In this document: positions 16,663 through 26,338 of the stretch, piece after piece
Layout: each line of letters begins with the position of its first letter
Position numbering within the stretch: position 1 is the stretch's first letter
DNA from: Ignisphaera aggregans DSM 17230
Lineage (GTDB): Archaea > Thermoproteota > Thermoprotei_A > Sulfolobales > Ignisphaeraceae
NCBI GenBank assembly: GCA_000145985.1
Contig: CP002098.1
Location: forward strand, 434,001 to 498,000
Length of the DNA: 64,000 nt
Reading direction: 5' to 3'
Translations under genes and position numbers: made by a program
Notes under the pieces: generated by a model
Seen by the model: only the letters and a program-made list of their open reading frames with translations
What the model was told of the DNA's origin: nothing
Database searches by the model: none

Positions 16663-17115
16663 TTATGGGACGACTTTGAGCCATGAAACTCTCTTAAAGT
16701 CTTCATCAAAAGTCAAGATTGTGTCAATACCGTAGTGCCAACAAGTTAATGCTATTTGGGCATCATTAGGAAGGAGTTTAAAATCCTGCATTATTTGAAG
16801 ATACTCATTATAGTTAAAGTAGTCATTTACTATTTCAACGTTTAAATCTCTTAGAAGAGATCCTATAGCGTCTATTACCTCTCTAGGATATCTCTGTTTT
16901 ATAATTAACTTTCTTAAATCATATCTTCCCCTAATCATTCCTCTCTGTCTGTAATACTCATATGTTGCTACATAAAGAGCCTCACTAATACCAATCCCTG
17001 AAATTATGAAATATAAATCGTGGTATGTCTCTAAGATTTGTTGAGCTAGGTTACTCTTCTCAGTTTTGAGAAGAATGCTGGGTATAGAGCTAGTATCAAT
17101 GTATGTAAGTCTCAC
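16663..17115 (-). CDS. vapC: VapC-type PIN-domain ribonuclease toxin
   Basis: A 150-residue PIN domain with the acidic catalytic set: D7 (YIDTSS), E45 (GISEAL), D118 (LLPNDAQIAL) and D137/D139 (TFDEDF). VapC toxins cleave tRNA or rRNA and are held inactive by the co-expressed antitoxin. It starts 4 bp inside the end of the upstream VapB gene, so translation is coupled. The middle is long and helical, but all active-site positions are present, so it should be functional. Confidence 0.9.
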   Translation of the reverse strand: MRLTYIDTSSIPSILLKTEKSNLAQQILETYHDLYFIISGIGISEALYVATYEYYRQRGMIRGRYDLRKLIIKQRYPREVIDAIGSLLRDLNVEIVNDYFNYNEYLQIMQDFKLLPNDAQIALTCWHYGIDTILTFDEDFKRVSWLKVVP

Positions 17116-17309
17116 TGAATATAAGTCTCTTCTTCAAGTTCTAGTAACTCTTGAATTGATGATCTTCCTAGGATTCCTCGATACTTCTTGAGTATTCTTC
17201 TTATATCACGCTTAATGGTGATCAATACCTCTTCTCCTTCCTCAAGATCTACTGGTTCTAAAGGTTTGAAGACTCCATTTTCATAACGTACACGTATGAC
17301 TCTGGACAT
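17112..17309 (-). CDS. vapB: VapB-type antitoxin (DUF104/AF2212-like)
   Basis: A 65-residue protein beginning SRVIRVRYENGVFKPLEPVD, the typical beta-hairpin of the AF2212/DUF104 antitoxins (the YENGVFKPLE block), followed by LEEGEEVLITIK and a C-terminal helical tail that would wrap the toxin. The gene directly precedes vapC with a 4-bp overlap. A palindrome and a TATA box lie just upstream, consistent with autoregulation. Confidence 0.9.
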   Translation of the reverse strand: MSRVIRVRYENGVFKPLEPVDLEEGEEVLITIKRDIRRILKKYRGILGRSSIQELLELEEETYIQ

Positions 17310-17936: not shown

Positions 17937-18575
17937 ATGGTGCAATATAGAAGTGTAGATGCAGCAAATTCTTCTCTTCATGTTAGGCGAGGTTCTGTAG
18001 AGATTATACATGTTATTCTTAAGTATTTATCTGAAAGCTTATGTGCCTTAAAGACACATATTCTATATGTATCTAATTTGAATTCTAAGACCTTAGAGAA
18101 ATATCTTAATATACTATTAAAGAATAATATAGTTAAGGTTGATGACCATAAGTGTTATATGTTAACAGAGAAAGGCTATGAACTGCTCCTTAATCTTGAG
18201 AATATAGTGGAAATTCTAGATAATGAGAATGATATTGATAGTATGTTAATTAGGGTTAAAGCTAGGATAGATAAAGCTCTTTTAAACTATGGGAGTAGCT
18301 CTATAGAGATAGTAATAGCTGATGATAGAGATGCTGAGAATGCTCTTAAAAAGGTTATCAAAAGCTATCTACTCTATGCTACAGGTAGAAAGAATGTCTA
18401 TGTATTAATACCATTTAAAGCTTATAGAATACTCATAGACTTTATAAAATATATAGAATTTCTATCAAATAATGTTATACCATATGAATACTACGATGTA
18501 CATGAACTAGCTGAACGTCTAAAAGAGAAGCTTATAGAGATAAAGAATATGAAGAATGGTACATGGGATATATAG
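17937..18575 (+). CDS. Winged-helix DNA-binding protein (predicted regulator)
   Basis: A 212-residue protein. Residues 20-90 look like a winged helix: a recognition segment SKTLEKYLNILLKNNIVKV followed by a wing strand YMLTEKGYELLLN, typical of archaeal regulators. The remaining 120 residues are a mixed alpha/beta domain of unknown type (KNVYVLIPFKAYRILIDF). No metal or ligand site is apparent. It is convergent with, and 16 bp from, the last gene of the surface-fibre locus, so it may regulate that locus. That is inference from position only. Confidence 0.7.
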   Translation: MVQYRSVDAANSSLHVRRGSVEIIHVILKYLSESLCALKTHILYVSNLNSKTLEKYLNILLKNNIVKVDDHKCYMLTEKGYELLLNLENIVEILDNENDIDSMLIRVKARIDKALLNYGSSSIEIVIADDRDAENALKKVIKSYLLYATGRKNVYVLIPFKAYRILIDFIKYIEFLSNNVIPYEYYDVHELAERLKEKLIEIKNMKNGTWDI

Positions 18576-18591
18576 ATGAAAATGATCTAGC

Positions 18592-19629
18592 CTATGAAGA
18601 TATAGAAGAAGGTTCAAAAATATATTCATAGACAATGTCTTCGTCTATAACCATAAAACGTATATTCCCTCCATCTCTAACCATTGCTATAGGCTTCTTT
18701 CTCAATGTAGATATCTTTACAAGCTCCTCAAAATTATCTATTAAAACTCTATTGTTATTCTCTATAGATATTCTACTACAGGTTATTATTATATCGCTAT
18801 ACTTCTTCAAAATTCTATCTATAGGGCTCTCCCTAGTTCTCCTGCTAAGAATTATTATTGCTGTTAGTAGTGGTGATGATATTAGTATTAAGATAAAGCT
18901 ATAGAATCTAGCTACACCTACCCCTATATCCATACCCATAAACCTTATATATGTAGGTATAACAATATTTCTAGAATCTATATATCTATCCTCATTACCA
19001 GTTATAGATACTGTTATAATTGGTTTTGTATAGTCATATGATAGTTTTATTGTTGGTGTTAGCTCTAATCTATATGTCTTGTCAATAGTTTTTATAGCTA
19101 TATCTATATAGTATGTATAGATAATATCAATACTTTTAGATGACACTCCTATCTCCTTATCCATAGCATTGACATAGCTCATTATCTCTTGAAAATCTAT
19201 ATATAGATAGTTCTCCTTATCTAGTATACTATCTATATCTCCCTGATCTATAACTATAGATCTATTCCAATTTGGTGTATTTATTATTCTTACAATTCTA
19301 TATACACCCTCTATACCCCTTATAGATATATCTGCACTAACTCTATATCTATAGGAGATATTCATACCATTGAATAGCTTTGCATATATAGGTTCACCCA
19401 TCATGATAATACTCCTATTATTATAAACAATAGAGTTCTTTACATAGACTCTATAACCTATATCAAGACTATGATAAATCTCAGCAGTTTTAACAGTTTT
19501 TGTAGTCTCTAGAGGAACACTATATGAATATACTAGAAGCGTTAGAGATGCTATAAGTATTGTTGATAGAACTGCTATAGCTATAAACATTAGAAGTCTT
19601 CTATCTATCTTTAGAATATCTATAAACAT
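18592..19629 (-). CDS. DUF5305-like membrane protein of the fibre locus
   Basis: A 345-residue protein: N-terminal transmembrane helix (about 14-36), an extracytoplasmic beta-rich domain (about 40-240), a second helix (about 243-262), then a cytoplasmic tail. The tail ends VLIDNFEELVKISTLRKKPI with a final Y-rich strand, the pattern I recall for DUF5305. That family often accompanies SipW-type signal peptidases and TasA/camelysin-like proteins in archaea and Firmicutes. Its start shares one base with the signal peptidase stop, so the two are co-translated. Probable role: accessory factor for secretion or assembly of the fibre subunits; unproven. Confidence 0.7.
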   Translation of the reverse strand: MFIDILKIDRRLLMFIAIAVLSTILIASLTLLVYSYSVPLETTKTVKTAEIYHSLDIGYRVYVKNSIVYNNRSIIMMGEPIYAKLFNGMNISYRYRVSADISIRGIEGVYRIVRIINTPNWNRSIVIDQGDIDSILDKENYLYIDFQEIMSYVNAMDKEIGVSSKSIDIIYTYYIDIAIKTIDKTYRLELTPTIKLSYDYTKPIITVSITGNEDRYIDSRNIVIPTYIRFMGMDIGVGVARFYSFILILISSPLLTAIIILSRRTRESPIDRILKKYSDIIITCSRISIENNNRVLIDNFEELVKISTLRKKPIAMVRDGGNIRFMVIDEDIVYEYIFEPSSISS

Positions 19630-20819
19630 TATAACACCTTGAAAATCCTTCTCCCCATATATATAGTTAGGAAAAAGAATAGTGTAGATAAAAAGTTTAT
19701 CTTATCGACAAATACTATATCCATGTATAGAATAGGAATACCAATATATGGAATAACAAATATTGTTTTACCAATAACATTATTTTCTGTAACTATAAAT
19801 GGATCTATATCTCTATTTGCATCACCCTTTGTAATATATCTAATACTTCCATTGCCCAATGGAATAATATCTATAACTCTATGCATAACAATTTCTCCAT
19901 TTGGTGATAGAAATGCTATTATATTATTTCTCTCTATATCTTTTATAGGTAGTGTAATAGCTATATCACCAATATTCATTGTTGGAGACATACTTCCACT
20001 AGAAACTATGTATAGACCTATATTTGCTATCCTTAGATATATTATTATAGCTATAGATACCATTAACACTCTAGCAATTATATGTCTCCTCCTAAGAAAT
20101 TTTCTAAGATAGTACTCATATACATCGTATTCATATATAGCTATATATATAAGTATTAGGTATATAGCTATAAGCAGTATGTTTATAGCTGACGATATGC
20201 TTAGAGGTATGTTTGGTAGTATGGGTACTGAGTATAGATATATTTTATCTATAGATGAAAATGTTATTGTTGATACTATACCACTAGATATATATAGGAT
20301 TGACAAGAATATATGTTTAGTATATATAGGTAATAAATCTATGAAAATAAAGTTCACAATCTCTCTATACCCAGATGATAAAAGCGATAAATATTTGGTA
20401 TACGGATTCTCTAAAAGAGATAGAAATAGAGATATAGATAATATCCAATAGAAACTCCTCCCAAATCTATCAAGAACAACAGCTCTAAAACACTCAATAG
20501 CAAGAGCTATTGGTATAACCCTAAGAAGACCAAATAAAATACCACTAAACTCTATAGCTAGAGGATTACGACCAAAACCCCTTACAATACCTAGAACAAT
20601 ATCATTAGCAATTCTAATCAAGAAGAAAAACACTATTAACCCAAACACCTTTGGCTCATAAATCTTAAATCTATTGCTATAAAGAAGTCCAAATACTATT
20701 AATGAAAGTGAAAATGGTAGAACATATGCTATGAGCCCTCGAGGCACTATAAATAGAGGATATAGATAGATAACTAGGATTAGAGCTATAGAGAGTAAAA
20801 CCCTTGAATATCTATACAT
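19629..20819 (-). CDS. SipW/Sec11-type signal peptidase I fused to an N-terminal polytopic membrane domain
   Basis: The C-terminal 150 residues are an archaeal/ER-type signal peptidase: catalytic Ser276 in SSGSMSPTMNIGD, His313 in MHRV (His replaces the bacterial Lys, as in SipW and Sec11), and Asp333/Asp337 in KGDANRD. A C-terminal helix follows. The first 240 residues are an unusual extension with about seven hydrophobic segments and no motif I recognise. Archaeal signal peptidases are usually about 150-200 residues, so this is a clear fusion. It lies directly downstream of three secreted fibre-subunit genes, suggesting it is their dedicated peptidase, as SipW is for TasA in Bacillus. Confidence 0.88.
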   Translation of the reverse strand: MYRYSRVLLSIALILVIYLYPLFIVPRGLIAYVLPFSLSLIVFGLLYSNRFKIYEPKVFGLIVFFFLIRIANDIVLGIVRGFGRNPLAIEFSGILFGLLRVIPIALAIECFRAVVLDRFGRSFYWILSISLFLSLLENPYTKYLSLLSSGYREIVNFIFIDLLPIYTKHIFLSILYISSGIVSTITFSSIDKIYLYSVPILPNIPLSISSAINILLIAIYLILIYIAIYEYDVYEYYLRKFLRRRHIIARVLMVSIAIIIYLRIANIGLYIVSSGSMSPTMNIGDIAITLPIKDIERNNIIAFLSPNGEIVMHRVIDIIPLGNGSIRYITKGDANRDIDPFIVTENNVIGKTIFVIPYIGIPILYMDIVFVDKINFLSTLFFFLTIYMGRRIFKVL

Positions 20820-20875
20820 ATAGATACCTATAAACAGAATTTAATTAGAAGAGAAAAACATTTTAATTAAATTAA

Positions 20876-22132
20876 TTAAGGATCTATCGAAAAGTAATCT
20901 ACAAGTACAACAAAGTTATTAGACTTATCATTCTCTATCTCAAACCTCAGCTGATAACTTCCCAGCGATAAACTACAAGGTACGCTATAATTTCTATAGG
21001 GTATACCACCACTAGGACCTCTACCATAAACTATTGTTTGACTACCCATACACACCCAGTTACTACCATCCCACACACCAAACCTCAGAGTCACACTAGC
21101 ACCACTATCAGCCACCTGATCAACCTTATACCTTATCACTACATTAAATGAAGTACTCTCACTAACTGTAAAGCTTTGATAAAGCCAAGCAAACGCATCA
21201 GTAGTATCTTCACCTTTAAGCTCGCCATCAAACTTAGCAGCACAACCATCTAGAGCTGGATCCTTCCCCTTATCATCCTTAGCAGCATCCCATTTTGTTT
21301 TACTCTTCCATTTATTGTCAAAACCTATAGTCCAACCATCAAGCTTACACCTATTTCCAACCGTGAAGTTATCGTTGTTTATGGTTGGCTTGTATGTTGG
21401 TGGTGTGGTGGTTGTTGGCGGCGTAGTTGTAGTTGTTGGTGTTGGTGTAGGATTAGGTGTTGGAGATGGGCTAGGAGTAGGCGTTGGTGTAGGTGTTGGA
21501 CAAATTAATTCGTTCCACTGTACTGCTACTAGACTTACACCAAATGATAATGTTGATCCTTCTGGAGCATCTTGAAGTACTATTATCTTAATTGTTAGAT
21601 CTGTATCATAACCTGGGTGTAGCTGTTCACAGTACTCTGGGCCTTCCCATATCACCAATAGATCTGGTTTTCCATCACCATTTACATCAAGATATTCATA
21701 TCCACTAGTAGGGGAATGTTCATATCCATTTATAGTTAGTTTCCAGACCTTTATAGGTATGGTCCCAGTATTAGCTATAGATACGCTAACCTCTGTATAG
21801 TACCATGGATAAACATTGTTTAGAGTAATATCTAGCTTATGACCATCTTCAGTTATTGATGCTGAAGTACAGCCAACATTTTTATCCATCTGCTCCGGCT
21901 CATCTGAAGGTGGAATTATATTCCAGTCTTTACCATTGGTGTGATCACAAGAATCAAGCCATTCTGCATTCTGGAATTTCCAATCAACATCACCCATAGA
22001 TACTGAGACGTTGACCCTTAGTGTTTCACTCCACATAGCAATGACAGAGGATATCAATATTATTGTTATTATGGAAAAAGTGAAAAATTTATATTTATAG
22101 GAGTACATTGATGTATAACCTCTCTCAGTCAT
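20876..22132 (-). CDS. TasA/AbpA-like secreted subunit fused by a Pro/Thr linker to a beta-sandwich-like domain
   Basis: A 418-residue secreted protein. The signal peptide ends after Ala32, and the mature protein begins MWSETLRVNV, shared with both upstream paralogs. Residues 33-215 are the fibre-subunit domain ending LVAVQWNE. A low-complexity linker of Pro, Thr and Ser runs from about 217 to 255. The last 160 residues look like a beta-rich, jelly-roll or carbohydrate-binding type domain with aromatic residues and a closing VVLVDYFSID strand. It may be an adhesive or tip subunit. Its start overlaps the previous stop (TAATG). Domain identity of the C-terminus is inferred from composition. Confidence 0.75.
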   Translation of the reverse strand: MTERGYTSMYSYKYKFFTFSIITIILISSVIAMWSETLRVNVSVSMGDVDWKFQNAEWLDSCDHTNGKDWNIIPPSDEPEQMDKNVGCTSASITEDGHKLDITLNNVYPWYYTEVSVSIANTGTIPIKVWKLTINGYEHSPTSGYEYLDVNGDGKPDLLVIWEGPEYCEQLHPGYDTDLTIKIIVLQDAPEGSTLSFGVSLVAVQWNELICPTPTPTPTPSPSPTPNPTPTPTTTTTPPTTTTPPTYKPTINNDNFTVGNRCKLDGWTIGFDNKWKSKTKWDAAKDDKGKDPALDGCAAKFDGELKGEDTTDAFAWLYQSFTVSESTSFNVVIRYKVDQVADSGASVTLRFGVWDGSNWVCMGSQTIVYGRGPSGGIPYRNYSVPCSLSLGSYQLRFEIENDKSNNFVVLVDYFSIDP

Positions 22133-22797
22133 TAACTAGGTACGTAGTACTCATTCCACTGAATAGCCTCGAAACTTACAGTGAAACTAAGTGTTGATCC
22201 TTGCGGAGCATCCTGCAATACAGTGATATCTAAGCTTATATCAGCACTTTGACATGGATGTAGCTGAACACCAAAGTTATCTCCCCACCATATCAATACA
22301 TCAGATTTTCCATCGCCTGTAAGATCCAGATATAATCCCTCCTTCAGTGGTTGTGCATTTAGTTCATAGAATTCTTGGTTATCAATTATTATTCTCCATA
22401 TCTTTATAGGTATAGTACCATCATTGTGAACCTTAAATGCTATATGTGTATAGTACCATGGATAAACATTATAGAGTGTTACCCTCATAGTATCGTAATC
22501 TCCATCACCATCACTATCAATTAGTGTTACATCTGTACAACCAACATCCTTATCAAGCTGATCTGCTCCCGGCTCTGGCAAGTAGGATGCATTCCAATCA
22601 TTTCCCCTGAAATATCCATAGCCAGGTTGAAGACCGCAAGCATCAAGCCATGTTGTCGGTCCTGAAACGATTTCCCAGTCAACCTCACCAGTACCAACAG
22701 CTACATTAACTCTTAGTGTTTCACTCCACATAGCAAGAGTAGCAACTGTTAATAGTGTAAGTAGTATGAGTGAAAAAGATATTAATCTTCTATTCAT
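22132..22797 (-). CDS. TasA/AbpA-like secreted fibre subunit (paralog 2)
   Basis: A 221-residue secreted protein. The signal peptide (about 1-22, ending TLA) is followed by AMWSETLRVNVAVGTGEVDW, nearly identical to its two neighbours. The body contains acidic Asp-rich turns (DSDGDGDYD and DLTGDGKSD) like calcium-binding loops and repeated 'YPWYYT' and 'GTIPIKIWR' blocks also seen in paralog 3. It ends FEAIQWNE. The overall design matches TasA/camelysin-type and archaeal bundling-pilus subunits, in which the mature N-terminal strand completes the next subunit. 32 bp separate it from paralog 1. Confidence 0.75.
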   Translation of the reverse strand: MNRRLISFSLILLTLLTVATLAMWSETLRVNVAVGTGEVDWEIVSGPTTWLDACGLQPGYGYFRGNDWNASYLPEPGADQLDKDVGCTDVTLIDSDGDGDYDTMRVTLYNVYPWYYTHIAFKVHNDGTIPIKIWRIIIDNQEFYELNAQPLKEGLYLDLTGDGKSDVLIWWGDNFGVQLHPCQSADISLDITVLQDAPQGSTLSFTVSFEAIQWNEYYVPS

Positions 22798-22829
22798 TGT
22801 CTAACCCCACTATATCTTTCTACGCCTTG

Positions 22830-23378
22830 TTATGGTACCTCGTTCCACTGAGCAAATGTTAGTGTAACCTCAAATGTGTATGTACTCTTCTCTGCAGCAC
22901 CTTGAAGTACTGTAATATGTAGTGTATAGGTGCTATTGTATCCAGGATCTATCTGCGTATCCTCAGGTACTGTCAAACTTACAGATAGAGCTTCTTTATC
23001 ATATTCTGATATACTGGAGCTGAGGAGTTTTACAGGTATTGTACCAATATTATCGATAACTAGACCCACATCAACACTATATCCAGGATAAGCATTATCT
23101 ATAGTGACAAGTAGTTTTATAGGATTACCCTCACCATCTCTTACCTCTACACTAATATCACAGCTAGCAACATCTTTACCTTCTGTGTTGTGGAAGCCTT
23201 CTGCCTGTGGATCTGCCCCTTTATCACTGCAGTACCAGTCTGAGAATTTTACCTTTACTTCACCTGTATTTACCGCTACATTTACCATCAGTGTTTCACT
23301 CCACATAGCTAGTGCTGTTCCCAATACCATTGCTATTAATGCTAGTGTTAATCCAAATAGGGTTTTTTGTTTATACAT
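22830..23378 (-). CDS. TasA/AbpA-like secreted fibre subunit (paralog 1, smallest)
   Basis: A 182-residue protein and first gene of the fibre operon. Signal peptide 1-24 with a T-A-L-A cleavage site, mature start MWSETLMVNVAVNTGEVKV, then the shared elements ('NAYPGYSVDVGLVIDNIGTIPVK') and a C-terminal strand LTFAQWNE. It lacks the Asp-rich loops of paralogs 2 and 3 and is the closest in size to TasA and AbpA, so it may be the main subunit. No class III (type IV pilin) signal is present, so processing should be by signal peptidase I. Function is by analogy with TasA/AbpA. Confidence 0.75.
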   Translation of the reverse strand: MYKQKTLFGLTLALIAMVLGTALAMWSETLMVNVAVNTGEVKVKFSDWYCSDKGADPQAEGFHNTEGKDVASCDISVEVRDGEGNPIKLLVTIDNAYPGYSVDVGLVIDNIGTIPVKLLSSSISEYDKEALSVSLTVPEDTQIDPGYNSTYTLHITVLQGAAEKSTYTFEVTLTFAQWNEVP

Positions 23379-23845: not shown

Positions 23846-26338
23846 TTATCTAAATATGTTTATTTCATACCATATGGTGCTATAGGTGTTGTTGATATAT
23901 AGAGCTCTATATCCTTCACTGGAGATCATATCTATTCTCTCTCTTGGAAGACCTCTGCTATCTAGAACATATGCAAAAGCATTATACTGTGTTTTTATCA
24001 TTATTGTTGCATTTATTCCCTCGACTATTGTTGGTGGTCTGCCCCAGTTGCCAAACGTGGTAATTTTTAATCCATATGTATCTGGAATAGATGTCATATT
24101 GGTTGTAGCTGTAAATAGCAATTTTCTAGAGTCATACTCATATATATTCATTCCAGTGTTGAATACTGCTCCAATAGCTATTACAAGTATCTTCTTTGTA
24201 TCTTTAAAGCTTTGTCCATCTAATACGTGTAGAGCTATTGTTGCATATCCATTAAGCATAGTTTCTCCAACTTCTATTACCACATCCCCAAAATCAAATC
24301 TTCTTCCACTAATAAATCCTGTTAATACTATGCTTCTCGATGTATTTACTATAAATACACATTTATCGACTCCATAGCTACAATCCCATATAAGTTCACC
24401 AGTATCACTAACATACACAGGTTTATCTGGCATACTAACATCTTTAATAGATATGATATTTGTTGATGGTCTTGTCCCATTTGTTGTAACAAGACCTACA
24501 CCATGAAGTAGTGGTATGTGTGGTGGTGCTATATGTAATCCATTTGGAAGATTCCAAACACTAGCTCTTAACGATCTTATCAACTCTATCTCTGTTTCTC
24601 TAGAGAGTTCCACTGGTACCCAGTATCTAGCTGGAGATACATCTCCTCTTATGAACAACATATACGCCGTTATCATTAGAGGCCATCTAGCTGGGTCCTG
24701 ATCAAATTCAAGGGTACCTCTTATCATCTTAGAATCAAAGACTGCTGGACCCGATGGACCGCCATAGGAGTAAGGCATTATTGCATCCCAGTCTTGGAAA
24801 GCTGCATAGGCTGGAAGGAGAATGAAGCCCTCACTTCTATACATATTTGGTGCTGGATGATTATATTCACTAACTGTATATGGCTTACCGAATATCTTTG
24901 TATATGCAAGTCTTATAATTGTGCTACCCAGGGGATTGTTAACCATAGCATCGTTTACAACATAGAAATCATTTCCACTGCCAACAGGATATCTCCAGTA
25001 GTGGTGAGTATCAACAACATCTAGGTTTTGCTGTATATTTGGTGTTCCACCAAATACAACTTGTGTACCTATGACAAGCTGTTTAACACCTATCTCCTCC
25101 TTCAAATATCTGTACATCTCCATGTAGAAATCATATTCTAGTCTCCACAGAAACTCCACCCAATCCCTCTGAGCAGTCTCTGGACGTGTCCTATATTCAT
25201 CCAATGTAAATATCTTTATAGCACCATTTTCAAGATATTCACCTGGTTTTAGTGAGCCCCAGCTCTTTAGCAAGTTCTGTGTAGATCCATATTTCTCCAA
25301 TAGATATTCATTCCATTTCTTCTGAAGCTCATTCTTAAATAGCATTGGAAGTCTGTCTATAGCTCCATCAAGCCAGCCAAATATTATTCCATATTCATTT
25401 AGAACCTCTATAAATGCAATTGCAGGTTCATCCTTATATGCAACACCGGTATATCCATTCACATGTGTAAACAGTTTATATGCAAACTCTTTAACTAGTT
25501 GTTTCGCAGGTTCGTAGAAGAATGGCAAAATATGTTTATCCTTCACCTGCTGTATCTGATCCACCTCCTTAGGAAGTCCATCATATGAAGAATAGCTCCT
25601 ATAACACATAAGATTTATATCCACATATATTCCATTCTCCTTAAGTTTGTATATCAGATAATCAAGTCTATCGAGCTTCTGTGGATCAAGTTCTCTTGTA
25701 CTTGGTATCTTAAAGATGTTGCGTGATGGATCCCAGTTTTGATCCATTGCATGTATCCTAACCAGATTCACACCATATTTAGCTAGTCTCTCTACATACT
25801 GATCTACTATAGATGGTGGTGCAAAGATCCAGGAGCCAACAACACTAACTCCCAAGAACTTGATTCTCTTATCACCAACATATAGATGGCCATCTGAACC
25901 CACATAAACAAAACCATACTTTCCAGCGGGTTTATCTAAATACTGTGAGAGGTCGAATGATGAAGCTGCATTGTCGTTCCATGGAAGGACAAATTCAAAG
26001 AGTTTTTGCTCTGTACCTCGCGTTATTATCGTAGTAGTAGGTGTGGGCATAGATGTTATAGTTATGGTCTGAGGTATTAATTCTGTTGTTGTCACAGTCT
26101 CAACAATAGTTGTAGGCTGTGTAACCGTAAGTTTTGTAGTTAGTGTAGTTGGTATAGTTGTAGTAGTTGTAGCTGTCATCAATATGGTTTCAGTAGCTAT
26201 TTGTGTAAATGTCGTTGTACTTACTACAGTTTGTGTTACTGTGGTTGATGGCATTATATTTGTAAAAGGCGCTACTGCTATACCAACTATAATCCCTACA
26301 ACAATTCCTATTGCTAATAACAACACAAGTCTGTTCAT
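23846..26338 (-). CDS. Cell-surface multidomain cellulase, EBI-244-like (GH5-type TIM barrel)
   Basis: An 830-residue protein with an N-terminal membrane anchor or signal (about 4-24), a Thr-rich glycosylatable stalk (about 31-106), a short beta-rich segment, then a TIM-barrel hydrolase (about 155-600) and C-terminal beta-rich domains (about 600-830). Catalytic candidates are Glu315 in EVLNEYG (acid/base) and Glu491 in TVSEYNHP (nucleophile), with HAMDQNWD and DTHHYWRY as substrate-cleft motifs. Length and domain order resemble EBI-244, a cellulase from an archaeal enrichment whose relatives include Ignisphaera. Expected to cut beta-1,4-glucan or mannan outside the cell. Start preceded by GGGTGGGTG. 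Specificity not determinable. Confidence 0.82.
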   Translation of the reverse strand: MNRLVLLLAIGIVVGIIVGIAVAPFTNIMPSTTVTQTVVSTTTFTQIATETILMTATTTTTIPTTLTTKLTVTQPTTIVETVTTTELIPQTITITSMPTPTTTIITRGTEQKLFEFVLPWNDNAASSFDLSQYLDKPAGKYGFVYVGSDGHLYVGDKRIKFLGVSVVGSWIFAPPSIVDQYVERLAKYGVNLVRIHAMDQNWDPSRNIFKIPSTRELDPQKLDRLDYLIYKLKENGIYVDINLMCYRSYSSYDGLPKEVDQIQQVKDKHILPFFYEPAKQLVKEFAYKLFTHVNGYTGVAYKDEPAIAFIEVLNEYGIIFGWLDGAIDRLPMLFKNELQKKWNEYLLEKYGSTQNLLKSWGSLKPGEYLENGAIKIFTLDEYRTRPETAQRDWVEFLWRLEYDFYMEMYRYLKEEIGVKQLVIGTQVVFGGTPNIQQNLDVVDTHHYWRYPVGSGNDFYVVNDAMVNNPLGSTIIRLAYTKIFGKPYTVSEYNHPAPNMYRSEGFILLPAYAAFQDWDAIMPYSYGGPSGPAVFDSKMIRGTLEFDQDPARWPLMITAYMLFIRGDVSPARYWVPVELSRETEIELIRSLRASVWNLPNGLHIAPPHIPLLHGVGLVTTNGTRPSTNIISIKDVSMPDKPVYVSDTGELIWDCSYGVDKCVFIVNTSRSIVLTGFISGRRFDFGDVVIEVGETMLNGYATIALHVLDGQSFKDTKKILVIAIGAVFNTGMNIYEYDSRKLLFTATTNMTSIPDTYGLKITTFGNWGRPPTIVEGINATIMIKTQYNAFAYVLDSRGLPRERIDMISSEGYRALYINNTYSTIWYEINIFR

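Follow-up and report, generated by a model that had tools for sequence, protein, structure and literature searches.

A five-gene operon of the archaeon Ignisphaera aggregans DSM 17230 was found to encode three secreted paralogs (P1, P2 and P3), a signal peptidase (SP) and a DUF5305 membrane protein, and we consider it likely that the locus makes an extracellular mixed donor-strand fibre of the AbpX/TasA type, processed by SP and with DUF5305 at its base. The genome is a single contig of 1,875,953 bases, and the DNA examined was a stretch of 64,000 nucleotides from it (G000:C1:434001-498000, hereafter the window), in which the five open reading frames (ORFs) lie on the minus strand at 18592-23378. 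This reading draws on the gene content, the homology to AbpX, a conserved cleavage site and strand, the conservation of the cassette among archaea, the linkage and fusion of SP and DUF5305, and the concerted strands of co-encoded paralogs.

An earlier note, made from the letters of this DNA, had described five minus-strand genes with 1-bp or short spacings, and all five are at that place and on that strand: there is a 1-bp overlap at P2/P3 and at SP/DUF5305, and gaps of 32 and 56 bp separate P1/P2 and P3/SP. The wider conserved cassette, including the DUF5305 gene and a gene of the HTH_45 family, had gone unrecognised; the latter is convergent with the operon and recurs beside the cassette, so that the conserved unit reaches beyond 18592-23378. 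The features are as follows (lengths in amino acids, aa; AF2, AlphaFold2 model).

22830..23378, minus strand: P1, secreted pilin-like subunit, 182 aa (ORF list; AbpX match, E=4.5e-8; orthologue leads the cassette in most loci)
23253..23306, minus strand: P1 donor strand, residues 25-42 (MWSETLMVNVAVNTGEVK), right after the predicted cleavage A24/M25 (paralog alignment, AbpX mature N-terminus, TasA alignment)
22132..22797, minus strand: P2, second pilin-like subunit, 221 aa (AbpX, E=0.0032; family profile)
22678..22731, minus strand: P2 donor strand, residues 23-40 (paralog alignment; family N-terminus comparison)
20876..22132, minus strand: P3, two-domain pilin-like subunit, 418 aa, with pilin domain, Pro/Thr linker and C-terminal beta domain (AF2; family profile)
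21983..22036, minus strand: P3 donor strand, residues 33-50, to which the AF2 monomer model assigns no strand (paralog alignment; AF2)
21383..21502, minus strand: P3 Pro/Thr-rich linker, residues ~211-250 (sequence; pLDDT 26-67)
20876..21382, minus strand: P3 C-terminal domain, residues ~251-418 (AF2, Foldseek, sequence homologue in locus L085)
19629..20819, minus strand: signal peptidase, 396 aa, with N-terminal membrane part of ~250 aa and catalytic domain (TIGR02228; hydropathy; invariant residues)
19722..20072, minus strand: SP catalytic S26 domain, residues 250-366 (TIGR02228 match; alignment of cassette homologues)
18592..19629, minus strand: DUF5305 protein, 345 aa (PF17231; AF2; SP neighbour)
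17937..18575, plus strand: HTH_45 / Sso10a-like winged-helix protein, 212 aa, candidate regulator (HTH_45, 5.6e-17; flanks the cassette elsewhere)

The pilin-like subunits and AbpX

In each of P1, P2 and P3 a lone N-terminal hydrophobic segment is followed by AMWSETLxVNV (alignment and hydropathy), the common mature start that the earlier note had reported. The common end given there, QWNE, forms the C-terminus of P1 and P2; P3 has it at residues 205-208, ahead of a linker and a domain of ~170 aa, so that it holds for the pilin domain and not for the whole of P3. P1 and P2 are ~34% identical. Within the genome the family profile recovers these three genes and no others, and it has matches in 46 of the 398 genomes of the phylum sample, which argues that the paralog set is not due to chance.

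P1 matches AbpX of Pyrodictium abyssi (PDB 9sj2; phmmer E=4.5e-8), as does a 41-sequence family profile (E=9.1e-13); the matches of P2 and P3 taken singly are weak (E=0.0032 and 0.018). AbpX forms a donor-strand-exchanged, ABP-like bundling fibre (PMC11952670). Its gene was located in a relative (locus L121; 100% identity across the 133 residues compared), and from the Q of A/QWSETL to the stop codon it encodes 163 residues, exactly the length of chain 9sj2_C, which fixes the cleavage of AbpX at A/QW and, by alignment, predicts that of P1-P3 at A/MWSETL. Mature P1-P3 are thus predicted to start at MWSETL, directly after Ala, and the N-termini proposed earlier at MWSET are backed by both the mature length of AbpX and the presence of A/MWSETL in all three paralogs. 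Trp occupies P2' in 109 of 113 family members. In a second AbpX deposit, chain 9rhp_A, GQWSETLSLSATISTG stands at the C-terminus, as expected if the construct had its N-terminal strand relocated to complement the monomer.

On the strength of these matches we conclude that P1-P3 belong to the AbpX group, of which the predicted fibre is a new member, with AbpX as closest relative. P1 is probably the major subunit. Since the closest relative of known structure is a subunit of a donor-strand fibre, the earlier argument that the conserved strand after the cleavage site suits donor-strand assembly gains support; of the label “TasA/AbpA-like” the kinship to donor-strand fibres stands, whereas neither AbpA nor TasA is the nearest relative. 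Matches to FG-GAP and internalin were set aside as due to acidic GDG loops and the Pro/Thr linker.

The paralogs might instead form a sheath or tube resembling cannulae, or S-layer-associated proteins, rather than thin fibres; Pyrodictium cannulae likewise polymerise by donor strand complementation, according to a title cited in PMC12326000. We regard this architecture as highly improbable, given that neither the three paralogs nor the family profile matched any CanA chain and that the sole significant relative is a bundling fibre.

Relation of these fibre subunits to TasA and camelysin was judged by the curated cut-offs of PF12389 and NF046066. P1 matches neither model, and P2 reaches 14.1 bits against the 450 of NF046066 and has no PF12389 match; sub-threshold PF12389 matches were found in 3 of the 41 family members, and AbpX itself scores 19.3 against 22.5. 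When the deep family profile was compared with TasA by hhalign, the score was 39.1 (maximum of 24.0 in 100 shuffles), with the N-terminal strand and first sheet covered and AFNDI of TasA falling on the AMWSE-type starts; TasA plus archaeal camelysin scored 49.3 against the family profile (probability 90.5%). The small alignment of P1-P3 aligned with TasA by hhalign at the C-terminal QWN motif only (probability 23%), and a single archaeal camelysin (L132) did no better against the family profile than shuffles (20.1 vs. 21.1). The SipW-cognate signal model TIGR04088 is matched by 13 of the 41 members at E<=1 (best 0.0011). In B. subtilis the dedicated SipW cleaves TasA, whose P2' residue is Phe (PMC10269814). 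We conclude from the profile comparisons that P1-P3 are remote homologues of TasA, below the curated cut-offs.

The AF2 model of P3 is beta-rich and is confident over residues 71-210 (pLDDT ~88-97). The C-terminal domain of P3 is modelled with moderate confidence as a beta sandwich with a weak likeness to jelly-roll folds, among them TmCBM61 and the MAM domain of neuropilin (Foldseek, TM-score by target 0.46-0.49); its one sequence homologue belongs to a protein of Zestosphaera that stands alone and is 75% identical (L085). Our guess is that it serves as an adhesin or sugar-binding module; two-domain paralogs suggest a route by which such fibres acquire binding functions.

The cassette in other archaea and its signal peptidase

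Cassette loci were retrieved with the pilin as sole query, so that the neighbouring genes are an independent observation, and adjacency counts were restricted to loci with room on the contig for the neighbour. A long SP adjoins the pilins in 32 of 34 loci (exceptions L085 and L087) and DUF5305 adjoins SP in 24 of 27 (exceptions L072, L073 and L076); the SP and DUF5305 genes overlap in 15 of the 23 measured cases, and an HTH_45 gene lies next to the cassette in 25 of 40 loci. A short (~185 aa) and a longer (~225 aa) pilin are present together at most loci, the P1 orthologue usually heads the cassette, and several loci add a third, larger pilin with a differing C-terminal part, e.g. SdrD_B-like. 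DUF5305 is present in 64 genomes of the phylum sample and occurs together with the pilin in 32 where ~7 would be expected (Fisher 7e-19, phylogenetic kinship being ignored). The cassette is patchy within the genus (3 of 11 genomes), and its genes also lie on a contig of Ignisphaera sp. RSNS13. Pilins, long SP and DUF5305, often with HTH_45, form a conserved cassette that is described here as new.

Five divergent pilin-like proteins have the N-terminal strand and lack the C-terminal QWNE where the end was read (L055:5544-6131, L063:9523-10140, L066:11234-11833, L123:4856-5533 and L124:4692-5357); those of L123 and L124 are encoded apart from the cassette, and all five are candidate caps or initiators with a role like that of TapA. 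AbpX-family proteins (YWTETLDINGTVTTGTLDV) are also encoded on a contig binned as Chloroflexi (L089), which may reflect transfer to bacteria, a bacterial branch of the family or mis-binning.

The SP of the operon scores 70.3 bits against TIGR02228 (cut-off 51.85), which identifies it as an archaeal signal peptidase I, and stays below threshold for the SipW model NF046067 (58.5 vs. 190). Residues S276, H313, D333 and D339 are invariant across 25 cassette homologues, and hydropathy predicts nine membrane segments, seven up to residue 265 and two C-terminal. The genome codes for two more signal peptidases, including a 168-aa housekeeping enzyme of the short type at a separate locus. A Ser/His active site is the norm among archaeal signal peptidases, which makes “SipW-type” a weak label; the other half of the earlier claim, that the peptidase is dedicated, agrees with its place beside the pilins and with the separate housekeeping enzyme. 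By its constant adjacency and its distinctness from the general peptidase, SP is a dedicated, fibre-linked peptidase with a predicted substrate specificity.

The third SP of the genome (376 aa, with a long C-terminal extension) is encoded beside a 199-aa secreted and a 659-aa protein (L096:6389-10307; G000:C1:1229500-1245500). The site may code for a further surface fibre or coat, belonging to a different family; comparison with the PDB gave the 199-aa protein no convincing relative. Short ORFs nearby with repeated FYSLLGVS, STPFWEF and LLPFGSF peptides in three frames (L096:13600-15600) resemble a CRISPR repeat array. An archaeal SP elsewhere (L132:3029-4027) has a second TIGR04088 match (21.4 bits) at residues 202-221 (...SFSYFSDSEWAEATFTAG), after a membrane segment, which looks like a membrane-tethered donor strand on the peptidase.

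Co-assembly, DUF5305 and the proposed fibre

In 24 non-redundant loci with a short and a long pilin, every short pilin was compared with every long one, with 10,000 permutations. Identity within loci exceeded that between loci for the donor strand (67.1% vs. 55.8%) and the signal peptide (28.3% vs. 21.4%), with 0 of 10,000 permutations as high in either case, and hardly at all for the body (29.1% vs. 28.4%, p=0.026). Concerted strands and signals fit subunits that plug into each other's grooves and are cut by one peptidase. Two pilins of one locus (L075:10001-10561 and L075:16233-16853) have identical signal peptides and donor strands and different bodies, suggestive of 5'-end exchange or conversion between paralogs.

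It could also be that P1, P2 and P3 do not co-assemble and form separate fibres or coats, with P3 as a separate secreted binding protein. The identity of only ~34% between P1 and P2 would suit this, as would the solitary P3-like gene of Zestosphaera (L085), with no SP or other pilins nearby. We think separate assembly unlikely, because co-encoded paralogs share donor strands beyond those of other loci and hardly share bodies, and because B. cereus and B. subtilis co-encode several subunits, TapA and TasA having one N-terminal strand in common (PMC10151520).

The DUF5305 protein narrowly exceeds the gathering cut-off of PF17231 (30.1 vs. 29 bits), in agreement with its earlier description as DUF5305-like, and PF17231 matches 19 of the 21 cassette neighbours in the alignment of relatives at E<=0.1 (best 3.7e-20). 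Its AF2 model (mean pLDDT 89.8) consists of a transmembrane segment (10-36), an outer beta-sandwich (41-236), a second transmembrane segment (237-263) and a small cytoplasmic alpha/beta domain. Assignment as TapA-like or TasA-like was not adopted, as the Foldseek matches, most of them to beta sandwiches, were not significant (best 6.8e-3). From its genomic linkage, the protein is most likely a fibre base or anchor, or a partner in processing or handover.

Fourteen DUF5305 loci were fetched from genomes without a pilin match in the phylum profile search, although two of them (L134 and L138) do carry weak pilin matches. By manual reading, SP is close to or fused with DUF5305 in 11 of the 14; the SP of L125 scores 38.9 bits against the cut-off of 51.85, and those of L126-L128 were recognised by the GYSMxPxLKPG motif alone. 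At L132, DUF5305 and SP are partnered by a genuine archaeal camelysin (PF12389 48.9 bits; TIGR04088 21.5 vs. 19), and at L135:6913-8499 they are fused in one 528-aa protein (TIGR02228 77.6 vs. 51.85; PF17231 29.8 vs. 29); in a second genome of that genus (G275), the DUF5305 match falls in a frame of 523 aa. The camelysin partner and the fusion indicate that DUF5305 is linked to SP and its exported partners generally. The Sulfolobaceae DUF5305 loci were considered as thread loci and dropped; the 237-aa secreted protein there has no PDB match. DUF5305 is unmentioned in the literature searched.

We tentatively propose that DUF5305 and its partner SP form a membrane platform for donor-strand fibres of archaea in general, which would couple subunit cleavage to donor-strand capture at the base and serve several subunit families (AbpX-like, camelysin and unassigned secreted proteins of Sulfolobaceae). 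The fusion, the overlapping genes and the pairing in 11 of those 14 loci would also suit a DUF5305 that is a cofactor of SP, acting in stability or substrate presentation, and not a fibre base. No DUF5305 gene adjoins the housekeeping peptidase of the genome, and a large outer beta-sandwich with a cytoplasmic domain seems excessive for a peptidase subunit; neither point is decisive, and the cofactor role has chances not far short of even.

For I. aggregans we infer fibre formation, co-assembly and roles for P3, DUF5305 and HTH_45 along the following lines. P1, P2 and P3 would be exported through Sec and cut at A/MW by the membrane-embedded SP of the cassette. The freed strand MWSETLxVNVxV would slot into the beta sandwich left open in the next subunit, and the fibre would grow as this is repeated, with P1 probably as main subunit and P2 and P3, which have the same strand, probably in the same fibre. 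P3 may display its C-terminal binding domain on the Pro/Thr stalk. DUF5305, in the membrane beside SP, would most likely receive the processed subunits as base, anchor or handover partner, and HTH_45 probably regulates the cassette. For export, cleavage and strand insertion the model draws on the homology with AbpX and TasA; for the steps of DUF5305 and HTH_45 it draws on genomic linkage alone.

Several points weigh against a mixed fibre with DUF5305 at its base. The fibre of P1-P3 in I. aggregans is a prediction from gene sequences, and searches of P1-P3 against Pfam, NCBIfam and PF12389 gave nothing over a TasA/camelysin cut-off. Foldseek with the whole P3 model returned no TasA, AbpA or other fibre protein in the top 50, the C-terminal domain dominating. 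The co-occurrence statistics ignore phylogenetic kinship. Gene conversion at the 5' end could be an alternative cause of the likeness of signals and strands within loci, with the same effect on compatibility. DUF5305 is absent beside the AbpX locus L121 and in L105 and L106, and is thus not strictly required.

Immediately upstream of the operon the window encodes an 830-aa secreted or membrane-anchored protein that has a stalk rich in Thr and weakly resembles GH42/GH5 (23846-26338, minus strand), and at 16663-17309 (minus strand) a likely toxin-antitoxin pair of an AF2212-like antitoxin and a PIN-domain protein. A scan for sigma-70 promoters, a model ill-suited to archaea, gave nothing above chance, and a viral contig scan gave no match.

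Comparison with known fibre systems

AbpX of P. abyssi (9sj2, 9rhp) is the closest parallel, with a homologous subunit, the A/xWSETL start and the motifs YPG and NxGTIP, and its gene (L121) is followed by the same long SP. The AbpX locus differs in having one subunit gene, no adjoining DUF5305, no two-domain paralog and no QWNE end. AbpA of Pyrobaculum calidifontis resembles the predicted fibre in being TasA-like, built by donor strands and made by a thermoproteote (PMC9674648, PMC10903470), but no direct sequence match to an AbpA chain was obtained; the loci taken as Pyrobaculum type (L105/L106) have pilins of the same family as P1-P3 and the long SP, but lack DUF5305.

The TasA/TapA/SipW system of Bacillus subtilis and CalY/SipW of B. 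cereus share with the operon a dedicated SP, an aromatic P2' residue, a common N-terminal strand and overlapping genes (PMC10151520, PMC10269814). Remote homology of their subunits to P1-P3 is detectable, although the family cut-offs are missed, and the described Bacillus operons, unlike the one studied here, lack DUF5305, the long SP and HTH_45. The Sulfolobus acidocaldarius thread (Saci_0406, with the putative cap Saci_0405) is, like the fibre predicted here, Sec-secreted, class I processed and built by donor strands (PMC9715654), but is described as independently evolved, and P1-P3 have no sequence match to it. The thread study found no definite chaperone or usher and stated that the assembly pathway is unknown (PMC9715654). 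What adds interest to the present locus is the conserved SP-DUF5305 partnership, absent from the literature searched: both accompany the subunits across changes of subunit family, which offers two concrete candidates for assembly and anchoring of archaeal donor-strand fibres, and the cassette makes this unknown machinery testable.

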